Part shown: in pieces, positions 9,166 through 22,064 of the stretch
How positions within the stretch are numbered: the first letter of the stretch is position 1
Layout: each line of letters starts with the position of its first letter
Origin: a virus
IMG/VR virus record: IMGVR_UViG_3300020442_000898
Location: 1 to 23,004 of that record
Length of the DNA stretch: 23,004 bases
Direction: 5' to 3' (one strand)
Made by a program: the position numbers and the translations under genes
The notes under the pieces: model-generated
What the model was told of the DNA's origin: nothing
The model's database searches: none
The model's input: the letters and a program-made list of their open reading frames with translations, nothing else

Positions 9166-10093
9166 TAAAAGTTCCTATAATATCTGGTATTCGTGCTTCT
9201 TCTATTTCTAGTACAAATTGCAAGTATTCTGTAAGCTCTTCTTGAATTGTCATTTCCTTATCAAGAAGTAATGCTGCTTCACTATTTCTTCGCACTACTT
9301 TTTTATCTAGTAGTTCTGAGTTTTTTACATCTGCGAGCTCTTGTATATCCCCTTCTATTTCATAGATTGTATGATCGTAGTCAGTAGGTATCATTTCTTC
9401 TGTACTACTTACAGTCTTACGTATCAATTGTGGAAGGTCAAAAGGTTCCCATATCCAAGACCAATCGTCTGGATTTATAAGAAGATAACCAGTAGTTACA
9501 TTAGTTCTATGAAAGGAAGTCGTCATTGGACTGCCAGGGTATACAATGTTACGCTGAGTATTACTGTGTGCGTGTAGGTCTCCTGCAAATACAATAGGAA
9601 ACTCCTCAAACCTGTCTAAGTCCACCTCTGGCTTGACATGGGGAGGAATCTCTCCTCGTACATGAGTAAACAGTGGTTCTGTCTGTATAAACTTTTCAAT
9701 GCTTCCTTTTCTATGTAAGTCGGCGTAAGGAAGAACGCCAAAACCAAAATCGGAATCACGATATGAAATATCCACTATCTGTACTAAAGGGTTAATATCT
9801 CTACTTGCTTGTTTTAGCTGTGTAAAGAAAGTTTTGTTTTTCTTGGTAGCTTCATGGTTTCCATCATAGATAAGCGTTGGAATACTTACTCCTCGTATAA
9901 AAGAAAAGTAAAGTTCCAGCTCTTCCATATTAGGAAGGCGATCAAAGAGATCGCCCCCAATAATGTGCATATTGCACATCTTTTCCAAGCTATATATTTG
10001 CTCGAAAAATAACTTGTACCTATCTAAAGCCCAAGAAACTGGGACATTTTTCTGCCCCAGTTTTATATGCCAATCGGCTGTAAAAAGAATCAT
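9134..10093 (-). CDS. SbcD/Mre11-like nuclease (T5 D12-like)
   Basis: 319 residues with the calcineurin-like phosphoesterase motifs in order: D7-W-H9, GGDLFD with D48, DGNHE with N79/H80, H144 (THVRG) and GDLHAH (D172, H174, H176). These bind two Mn ions in the Mre11/SbcD family. The C-terminal 100 residues would form the capping and SbcC-contact region. It supplies the nuclease activity of the complex with the SbcC-like ATPase encoded next. The start overlaps the stop of the ssDNA-binding protein by 4 bases (ATGA) with only a weak Shine-Dalgarno, so coupled translation is expected. Confidence 0.94.
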   Translation of the reverse strand: MILFTADWHIKLGQKNVPVSWALDRYKLFFEQIYSLEKMCNMHIIGGDLFDRLPNMEELELYFSFIRGVSIPTLIYDGNHEATKKNKTFFTQLKQASRDINPLVQIVDISYRDSDFGFGVLPYADLHRKGSIEKFIQTEPLFTHVRGEIPPHVKPEVDLDRFEEFPIVFAGDLHAHSNTQRNIVYPGSPMTTSFHRTNVTTGYLLINPDDWSWIWEPFDLPQLIRKTVSSTEEMIPTDYDHTIYEIEGDIQELADVKNSELLDKKVVRRNSEAALLLDKEMTIQEELTEYLQFVLEIEEARIPDIIGTFNDYASKVAME

Positions 10094-16242: not shown

Positions 16243-16514
16243 TAACAGTCCGGATCAAAAGATGCCCACTCATCCATTTCTGTAGGCTCATCATAATTAT
16301 CGTCATCAAAACTACAAAACCAAGGTCCGCTGTCAGGCGGCTCATACCACCAATCTTCTTCGTATGCATTGGGACAATGATAAGGAAGTGTGTAGCCATC
16401 CCCTATCATATTTTCCCCGCATTTGGGGCATATATCAGGATTTGCAATTAAAAGTGCATCATGCATATCAGTTTTTTCCCATCCAAATAAGTGCCATAAT
16501 ACATAAGCAAGCAT
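16242..16514 (-). CDS. Small Cys-rich, probable zinc-binding protein
   Basis: 90 residues. C29-P-K-C32-G and H46-C47 form a likely zinc site (CPKCGENM, then YTLPYHCP). A Trp/Pro-rich segment (EEDWWYEPPDSGPWFC, 52-67) and a very acidic C-terminus ending in Cys follow. The N-terminal 12 residues are hydrophobic but too short for a clear membrane anchor. It lies between the basic 98-residue gene and primase with one-base TAATG overlaps on both sides, so it is translated as part of a tightly coupled set. The family looks familiar from marine phages; I know no function. DNA or protein binding through the zinc site is inferred. Confidence 0.75.
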   Translation of the reverse strand: MLAYVLWHLFGWEKTDMHDALLIANPDICPKCGENMIGDGYTLPYHCPNAYEEDWWYEPPDSGPWFCSFDDDNYDEPTEMDEWASFDPDC

Positions 16515-16810
16515 TACCTTCTCATTCTTGCAATATCTTTCATTTCTTCTTCATTAATTACAGGTACTGCATTGCTCTTGTGCATGGTACTAATACCTCT
16601 GACAAGGGTTCCTGTATAACGTGGGCTTTCGACCCTAGGGGCAACTCCAACTGTATCGGGAACCGAGGGATACTCTGGGGTACTCCTGCGGCAATAATTT
16701 CGCTTATGGGCATTGACACTCCCAATCTTGCGAGATACAGTTTTTCTGCGCACACCTTTTTTCTTTCTTCCTGTGACATCATAAGCCAGTGATCCATATA
16801 TCATCCCCAT
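16514..16810 (-). CDS. Small basic conserved phage protein
   Basis: 98 residues. The N-terminal half is strongly basic (GRKKKGVRRKTVSRK at 14-28), and the C-terminal part carries YTGTLVRGISTMHKSNAVPV and ends EMKDIARMRR, a block I recognise from short marine-phage proteins. That block argues for this frame over the overlapping 79-residue frame at 16558-16797. The predicted start of its promoter is 24 bases upstream. The likely Shine-Dalgarno, CGGGAG, is the 3' arm of the terminator hairpin at 16815-16864, so it is free only in transcripts made from the promoter inside that hairpin. Nucleic-acid binding is plausible from charge; the function is unknown. Confidence 0.78.
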   Translation of the reverse strand: MGMIYGSLAYDVTGRKKKGVRRKTVSRKIGSVNAHKRNYCRRSTPEYPSVPDTVGVAPRVESPRYTGTLVRGISTMHKSNAVPVINEEEMKDIARMRR

Positions 16811-16814
16811 AAAT

Positions 16815-16864
16815 AAAAAACTCCCGTGATCGAAGTATATATTATACTACAAATCAACGGGAGT
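16815..16864 (-). terminator. Intrinsic terminator with a promoter in its loop
   Basis: On the minus strand ACTCCCGT(T)GAT (16864-16853) pairs with ATCACGGGAGT (16830-16820), 11 bp with one bulged base, followed by six T (16820-16815). The 22-nt loop holds a second stem (AGTATA/TATACT, 16848-16834) that includes the promoter -10. It follows the DnaB-type helicase stop (16881-16879) and should end transcripts coming from upstream. Confidence 0.85.
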
Positions 16865-16880
16865 GTCAAGAAATATTTTT
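16841..16880 (-). promoter_or_regulatory. Perfect sigma70-type promoter nested in a terminator
   Basis: -35 TTGACA at 16869-16864, a 17-bp spacer and -10 TATAAT at 16846-16841. The flank AAAAATATTTC is shared with the family. The predicted start, about 16834, excludes the 5' arm of the hairpin, so its own transcripts cannot form the terminator. It drives the 98-residue gene through to the SF2 helicase. Confidence 0.9.
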
Positions 16881-18231
16881 ATATGTCCTGGATTTCTTCT
16901 CCAGTTTTATGAGAGGAATCCTCTCTTTGATCTGGAGTTAGAGCATTCTCAGGGCCCATTTTTAGAGTTTCCCAGTCCATAGTGGAGGTAAAGTCTATAG
17001 GCTCATTATTTCTTATTTTTACGCACTTGAAAGTTACACAACTATCTTCATGCTGCCACGGCTCAAGAGCAAAAGCTGCATCAGCAGCATCTAAAATACC
17101 TTTTGCAAATCGAGCTTCGCCCGTTGCATCCGTTTGATACGGAGAGAAGAAAGGTATTTTATACTCTTGGGCCATAGACTTAAGAGCTTTACTTACTTCT
17201 ATTTGTTCGGTCCAATCGTACTGACCGCTTCTACTAGGAAGATTAGACCTCTTTACCTGATTGATATAATCAACAATAACTACACCAATATCCATAGAGG
17301 ATTTTACTTTCATTTCAACTTCTGTTCTTATCTTGCCCAACGTAAGAGAAGGATCGTAGATAACATCTAACTGCGCTTCGGGATTAAGATCACAGGTAGT
17401 AGTAAGTTTTTTATGAAAGTCATCGAACTTACGATGATCTCTATATTCTGAAAGAAGGTCTTGACCTCTCTGAAAACGACCAGCCCACCATTCTGCAACA
17501 CGTTCCCATTCGGTTACACTGAGGTTTTTAGATCGTAAGCGCCCTTGCGGCACCTCTGTAGCGATAGAGCAAAGTCTCTGAAGAATCGATCTGGAATCCA
17601 TTTCGATAGTAAAGTATAGTGCAGACTTACCGTCTTGATACACTGAGTTTGCAATATTCGCACAGGTAAGAGATTTCCCTGCGCCTCGTCTACCACCTAC
17701 AAGAATCAGATCCTTCGGGGAGAATTGAATCAGATTATCGTACTGTGTATTTAGACCAAGGCGCAGGTACTTTCCAAGCTCTTCTTCATCCTCAAATAGA
17801 GAGATACGTTGCATACTCTCTTGAGGTTCTTCAAGTTCTACCTTCTCTTCAACTCGAAGAATAATATCGTGTAGATGCTGGACACTTTCTTCCGCATCTT
17901 CAAAAGAAATGGAGTTTTCTACATAGTCATCTAACTCTGTCAGTATCTCTCGTTGAGTAAACTCATTTTTAAGATACTGTAAAAGTATGTATGGGTCTGT
18001 ATCAACTTCAAGAGTTTCTATCGCATATATCTTATCGAGAGTAGAAGTATCTCTAGTGGATAACTTCAGTTCTTCGACAGATGGGAGTTTATGATACGAC
18101 TCGCAGTGCTTATCAATAACGGAAAAAATAGTGTGGTACTCTTTCGGCAAATAGTGCTTACGCACATAGCTCCAGGTCTCAAAATCCTGTATGCTCAATA
18201 TTTGCTTGATGAGCGCACTAGCGACGTTCAA
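16879..18231 (-). CDS. Replicative DNA helicase, DnaB type (T5 D6-like)
   Basis: 450 residues. An N-terminal helical region (1-130) precedes the RecA-like core: Walker A GGRRGAGKS (179-187), H1a glutamate E210 in FTIEMDSRSI, Walker B VVIVDYI with D321, and the H3 region FFSPYQTD (361-368). The start is TTG at 18231, chosen because GGGGAG lies six bases upstream and no ATG lies nearby. It is the hexameric 5'-3' unwinding motor at the fork and partner of the primase. It is preceded by the D5-like gene terminator (18254-18285), with no recognisable promoter in between, so expression may depend on readthrough. It is followed directly by the nested promoter/terminator. Confidence 0.93.
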   Translation of the reverse strand: MNVASALIKQILSIQDFETWSYVRKHYLPKEYHTIFSVIDKHCESYHKLPSVEELKLSTRDTSTLDKIYAIETLEVDTDPYILLQYLKNEFTQREILTELDDYVENSISFEDAEESVQHLHDIILRVEEKVELEEPQESMQRISLFEDEEELGKYLRLGLNTQYDNLIQFSPKDLILVGGRRGAGKSLTCANIANSVYQDGKSALYFTIEMDSRSILQRLCSIATEVPQGRLRSKNLSVTEWERVAEWWAGRFQRGQDLLSEYRDHRKFDDFHKKLTTTCDLNPEAQLDVIYDPSLTLGKIRTEVEMKVKSSMDIGVVIVDYINQVKRSNLPSRSGQYDWTEQIEVSKALKSMAQEYKIPFFSPYQTDATGEARFAKGILDAADAAFALEPWQHEDSCVTFKCVKIRNNEPIDFTSTMDWETLKMGPENALTPDQREDSSHKTGEEIQDI

Positions 18232-22024: not shown

Positions 22025-22064
22025 ATTATACTTGTATAAGAGATGAAAGTCAAGAAATATTTTT
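22025..22064 (-). promoter_or_regulatory. Sigma70-type promoter before the HTH gene
   Basis: -35 TTGACT at 22053-22048, a 17-bp spacer and -10 TATAAT at 22030-22025, with the shared AAAAATATTTC flank. It follows the TAA (22065-22063) of the upstream regulator-like gene. The predicted start is about 22018. Confidence 0.9.
22026..22039. repeat. Inverted repeat across the -10 box
   Basis: TTATAC and GTATAA flank a 2-base centre and cover most of the -10 box. It may be an operator for one of the HTH proteins, but it could also be a by-product of the TATAAT sequence. Confidence 0.35.

Follow-up and report, generated by a model that had tools for sequence, protein, structure and literature searches.

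In Tn10/IS10, read-through RNA from external promoters folds back and hides the transposase ribosome-binding site, whereas transcripts begun at the promoter of the element itself do not, an arrangement to which the junction described below may be likened; its context is that of a transposon, and we know of no intrinsic terminator nested within it. In phage T4, inhibitory leader hairpins are found at gene e (lysozyme), soc, 49, and I-TevI, and gene e escapes through late promoters (PMC3014915). The review cited presents the T4 system as one of temporal control through late promoters and mentions no U-run terminator (PMC3014915).

Here, we analyze a 23,004-base virus record, IMGVR_UViG_3300020442_000898 (the window, meaning the whole stretch of DNA analyzed), from a T5-like marine phage. 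At the junction between its DnaB-type helicase gene and the following 98-amino-acid (98-aa) gene, as at T4 gene e, long upstream RNA would hide the ribosome-binding site, and RNA from a promoter beside the 5′ part of the hairpin, not having that strand, would be translated. Unlike gene e, however, the junction has a sigma-70-type promoter enclosed by the hairpin, which is itself U-tailed. With intrinsic terminators, the junction shares a G+C-rich stem, a U-run directly after it, and a position at a gene end, but its loop holds most of a promoter and its U-run is the leader of the 98-aa gene. The T5 early promoters N25, K28, and P31 resemble the junction promoter in their A/T-rich upstream sequence, similar spacing, strong -10 element, and replication-gene neighborhood; T5 differs in that neither a promoter nor a terminator is annotated between its helicase (D6) and primase genes. 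Some annotated T5 promoters fold back on their leader (e.g., P31B), and none of them has a T-run directly after the stem. In the literature searched, consisting mostly of papers available without subscription, we found no description of a U-tailed terminator that encloses a promoter and has the next ribosome-binding site as its 3′ arm. In its translational half, the junction appears to work like T4 gene e and I-TevI, and the nesting of a promoter in a U-tailed terminator appears to be new.

Results

The window carries T5-like replication genes arranged as in T5: split NAD ligase, D5-like regulator, DnaB-type helicase, primase, and family-A polymerase. The helicase gene (16879 to 18231, minus strand; Pfam DnaB_C, 1.3e-21; PHROG 19, 3.7e-48) ends with a TAA codon at 16881-16879 and would be the origin of read-through RNA entering the junction. 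The next gene (98 aa; 16514 to 16810, minus strand; PHROG 27048, 2.1e-21) begins at ATG 16810-16808, the start codon common to its relatives, and is followed by a 90-aa open reading frame (ORF) and then by the primase and DNA polymerase genes. Searches of the window found no tRNA and no Rfam match above the gathering score. In the interval between the D5-like gene and dnaB, positions 18287-18258 (minus strand) form a strong, ordinary terminator-like hairpin with 13 pairs and a T-rich tail; given its place upstream of dnaB, traffic through dnaB may already be limited.

All elements of the junction lie on the minus strand, within about 65 bases just 3′ of the helicase gene. The 70 bases that follow that gene read TAAAAATATTTC TTGACA CTCCCGTTGATTTGTAG TATAAT ATATACTTCGATC ACGGGAGT TTTTTATTT ATG. 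The first of these, an A/T-rich, UP-element-like stretch (16870 to 16881), is common to promoters of this phage family; similar stretches lie 5′ of the promoters at 22053, 20848, 19852, and 11161 and of most promoters in relatives. The -35 hexamer TTGACA (16864 to 16869) and the -10 hexamer TATAAT (16841 to 16846) both match the consensus, giving 12 of 12 positions with a spacer of 17, within the 16 to 18 expected of a sigma-70-type promoter, and the site as a whole (16869-16841) is the best promoter-like site within 14-20 kb. The 5′ arm of the hairpin, ACTCCCGT (16857 to 16864), shares the last base of the -35 hexamer and covers the start of the promoter spacer. It forms 8 bp with the 3′ arm, ACGGGAGT (16820 to 16827), a pairing identified by folding and by paired changes in relatives. 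Between the arms lies a 29-nucleotide (nt) loop that includes the -10 hexamer and, judged from the distance to the -10 alone, the predicted transcription start zone (16831 to 16836), which thus falls 3′ of the 5′ arm and 5′ of the 3′ arm. Five of the eight pairs are G-C, and the last T of the stem is the first T of a T6 run (16815 to 16820; terminator score, +15.0), so that a G+C-rich stem is followed immediately by a U-run, as in an intrinsic terminator. The 3′ arm also contains GGGAG (16825-16821), the ribosome-binding site of the 98-aa gene, and the T6 run, while completing the terminator, doubles as the spacer between that site and the ATG.

The junction strand folds at -19.6 kcal/mol, compared with -8.2 ± 2.4 for shuffled sequences (z = -4.7; 0/200). 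A scan restricted to loops of 3 to 8 nt, about the length expected in intrinsic terminators, missed the hairpin; counted from the 8-bp stem alone, its 29-nt loop is long for a terminator, and an inner stem shortens it. These coordinates and the folding confirm the layout proposed in the first-pass annotation, namely, a 5′ arm in the spacer and -35 edge, a loop around TATAAT, and a 3′ arm with six T's; a sigma-70-type promoter does lie inside an inverted repeat with a T-run. In the window, the -10 also sits within a small inner hairpin, AGTATA/TATACT (16848-16834), whose stem leaves a 3-nt apical loop. We rejected this as a key element, as it is not kept in relatives.

The proposal that CGGGAG is the sole Shine-Dalgarno candidate holds for the ATG at 16810 but not for an overlapping ORF of 79 aa in another frame of the 98-aa gene (16558 to 16797, minus strand; ATG at 16797), which has GGGGA 6 nt upstream (16808-16804) and may therefore have its own ribosome-binding site. 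The frame is open, at 67 to 85 codons, in 33/33 divergent relatives, and synonymous randomization gave a P value of at most 0.02 in 32 of these. In the first half of the overlap, codon-position variability is flat. Of 84 sequences, 81 contain a QLEL(P/Q)L motif (QLELPL type), which we take to resemble those that bind the beta clamp. The two frames may be a genuine dual-coding gene pair.

Relatives were gathered as two sets of 80 loci each, with the helicase and the 98-aa gene as queries; the helicase set comprises the best 80 matches listed, and clade shares within it are not frequencies. In the 98-aa gene family, the nested arrangement is present upstream of every member at 57 to 99% identity (L084-L157) and absent from five distant homologues (L158-L162). 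When 35 relatives were aligned, 91% of cells paired, compared with 37 to 57% when the arms were slid and 46 to 54% for a slide of one column. The first-pass annotation had suggested that related phages be compared for compensating changes in both arms, and such changes are present: both sides changed in 16 cells, versus 4.7 in shuffles (a comparison that overstates independence, since the relatives are mostly short metagenomic contigs with shared ancestry), with double changes at 4 of the 8 pairs. Arm types include CTCCCGT/ACGGGAG, CTCCCGC/GCGGGAG, CTCCTGC/GCAGGAG, CTCCCAT/ATGGGAG, ATCCCTGTGA/TCATGGGGAT, and TCCTCACTGATTG/CAATCAGTGGGGA; stems are longer or register shifted in L016, L017, L103, L147, L148, L151, and L194, the first two being register shifted. 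The anatomy of the junction, its conservation, and the paired changes in both arms are matters of direct observation.

This variability bears on two other readings of the inverted repeat. One is that it is a DNA operator overlapping the promoter and bound by a phage regulator; the arms flank the promoter symmetrically, and a D5-like DNA-binding protein, which could be such a regulator, is encoded near the junction. We rejected this as the main reading and consider it very unlikely, because the letters and register of the arms vary while pairing persists, where a sequence-specific operator predicts otherwise, and because the T-run and the ribosome-binding site in the 3′ arm would be left unexplained. 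The other, which we judge to be extremely improbable, is that the hairpin is a site of RNA processing or stability at the 3′ end of the dnaB mRNA (for RNase III, for example) rather than a terminator. Stems of 13 to 16 bp in some relatives would suit it, but the window stem has only 8 bp, which is short for RNase III, and the conserved T-run directly 3′ of the stem is better explained by termination.

Arms also pair better with their own partners than with those of orthologues: own arms gave -13.0 kcal/mol and swapped arms -8.4 (permutation P = 0.0002), and at the ligB promoter position, used as a control, swapping changed nothing. It could be argued that pyrimidine-rich spacers pair naturally with purine-rich ribosome-binding sites and that the hairpin is a by-product of composition. 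Indeed, some weak pairing with leaders persists when spacers are swapped (mean, ca. -7 kcal/mol), and even the ligB control has a ribosome-binding site that is predicted to be mostly paired in read-through RNA. However, own pairing at the helicase junction is far above swapped pairing, and when the spacer alone was shuffled, with hexamers and leader kept, 0/1,000 sequences reached the terminator score of the window, as did 0/133 real spacers taken from other promoters of these phages. On the strength of the swap test and the spacer shuffles we rejected this explanation, the probability of which we put as very low.

The terminator score, of a standard type, combines hairpin energy per length with a weighted T-run. 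Of 156 promoters that are exact members of the family, collected across the window and ten related contigs, eight scored above zero, all of them at the helicase junction (the window and seven contigs). Junction variants with a T-run scored positive in 37/40 cases and those without one in 0/20. The three exceptions are L073, where one C separates stem and T-run; L127, which is marginal; and L012, where the stem is lost. A G+C-rich stem accompanied the T-run in 39/40, and none of the 20 variants lacking a T-run had a stem of comparable G+C content. These results weigh on a further possibility, that the hairpin is mainly a translational lock of the T4 gene e type, in which the T-run is mostly spacer and termination is minor. 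The proximity of the stem to the helicase stop codon would be in keeping with such a lock, as would the hairpins at the MNLFYLDE and MGDRF genes, which hide ribosome-binding sites and show paired changes without any T-run. We nevertheless think it unlikely, if worth keeping in mind, given the restriction of positive scores to the helicase junction, with none among the remaining 148 promoters, the joint occurrence of T-run and G+C-rich stem in the junction variants, and the same coupling in L073, which belongs to another helicase clade and has an unrelated stem (CCTCCTCTA/TAGAGGAGG) followed by CTTTTT. A bidirectional terminator was likewise rejected: read on the plus strand, the stem leads into GTCAAGAAATATTTTT rather than directly into a T-run, and no ORF of more than 142 aa runs that way near the junction.

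Taken together, the paired changes, the swap test, and the terminator score strongly support selection on the geometry of the junction, as far as sequence comparison can indicate it. The co-changing arms, the advantage of own over swapped pairing, and the confinement of positive terminator scores to this junction argue against a chance origin.

At the corresponding junction, 108 IMG/VR stretches carry the element, and in three of them (L401, L413, and L425) a different gene follows it. These come from a pattern scan in which 108 elements were read back from 113 stretches; the scan required a T-run and fixed outer arm letters, so that loss of the element is outside what it can measure. The nested element is spread across many helicase lineages. 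Relatives that keep the promoter and lose the pairing, which the first-pass annotation would have counted against its reading, do exist: the stem is absent from a distant clade with helicases ca. 67 to 70% identical and from the L012/L057 lineage, though not from L084-L157. The hairpin is thus not needed for the promoter to be retained, and the helicase tree is compatible with either gain or loss of the terminator. In L012, L013, L057, and L197, a different, inserted gene lies directly 3′ of dnaB, and the promoter and T5 run, with the stem lost, still precede the MGV-type gene. The distant Vibrio phage VCPH (L203) has an ordinary-looking hairpin and T-run between helicase and primase (9381-9432), with no promoter inside it.

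In the window, the ribosome-binding site of the 98-aa gene is predicted to be unpaired with a probability of 0.0004 in read-through RNA and 0.36 in new RNA; family means are 0.12 and 0.68, and the ligB control shows a milder predicted shift (0.19 versus 0.61). The expectation that the site would be hidden in the former and free in the latter is therefore borne out for hiding and only in part for release, both by prediction. In prediction, the site is more exposed in RNA from an internal promoter than in upstream RNA, where it is paired, which is the pattern of a T4 gene e-type lock.

Discussion

We regard the junction as likely to be a compact border separating two transcription units in a T5-like phage, at which transcription would be stopped and restarted and a ribosome-binding site unmasked. 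From the layout we infer the following sequence of events. Polymerase arriving from dnaB would transcribe the full hairpin and six U's and often stop; in RNA that nonetheless reads through, the 3′ arm would lock the ribosome-binding site, and the 98-aa gene would be poorly translated. Polymerase that binds at the promoter inside the hairpin would, to judge from the position of the promoter, start past the 5′ arm. As the new RNA would not include this arm, it would form no hairpin, would not be terminated, and would have its ribosome-binding site available. The 98-aa, primase, and polymerase genes would then be expressed from their own promoter rather than by read-through from the helicase gene.

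How tightly the terminator insulates is another matter. The stem begins 14 nt past the helicase stop codon (13 to 18 nt in relatives). In E. coli, terminators this near a stop codon lose part or much of their activity to the trailing ribosome; full termination is reached only beyond ca. 27 to 30 nt, and 17 to 18 nt gives 0.12 to 0.8 (PMC4824070). Ribosomes may therefore weaken termination at the junction, and insulation is probably leaky. A leaky terminator would give purpose to a second lock, the masked ribosome-binding site, and hiding that site may be more important than insulation. A tentative and, we concede, rather doubtful extension is that the 65-base element is a translation-sensitive insulating promoter, in which ribosomes finishing dnaB tune passage through the terminator, the same hairpin silences the RNA that has passed, and only RNA born within the hairpin is translated.

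If this extension were true, terminator, promoter, and ribosome-binding site would have been fused in this phage family into a unit that evolves as one. Read-through by polymerase makes neighboring transcription units interfere, and the junction element would solve that problem without added sequence: its 5′ arm occupies part of the promoter spacer, which is freely variable, and the ribosome-binding site and the spacer after it double as 3′ arm and U-run. The natural variants with matched arms would also serve as an existing collection for testing compact insulated promoters, and they distinguish the translational lock, found without a T-run at several loci, from the terminator added at the helicase junction.

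Weaker hairpins without a T-run recur at other promoters of these phages. When arms were swapped among orthologues, pairing fell from -10.1 to -6.6 kcal/mol at the MNLFYLDE gene, from -9.6 to -7.7 at the MGDRF gene, and from -8.2 to -6.7 at ligA. The arms at the MNLFYLDE gene vary and yet pair (e.g., CAATCAG/CTGATTG, CTAGTAGA/TCTACTAG, and GGTCTC/GAGACC). In the simplest history, fold-back promoters would be widespread in this phage group, and one of them would also have turned into a terminator.

On its minus strand, the window has four further promoters that belong to the family of the junction promoter (22053, 20848, 19852, and 11161), with the form TTCTTGACW-17-TATAATAT after an A-rich stretch. 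At 22053, too, the promoter folds onto its ribosome-binding site (-13.0 kcal/mol), here with no T-run. Upstream of the MNLFYLDE gene, L284-L363 carry a fold-back promoter with paired changes in both arms, a hidden GGAGG, and no terminator T-run. In two of these, L312 and L313, the six-base arms GGTCTC/GAGACC directly flank a CATAAT -10 element, and GGAG lies in or beside the 3′ arm.
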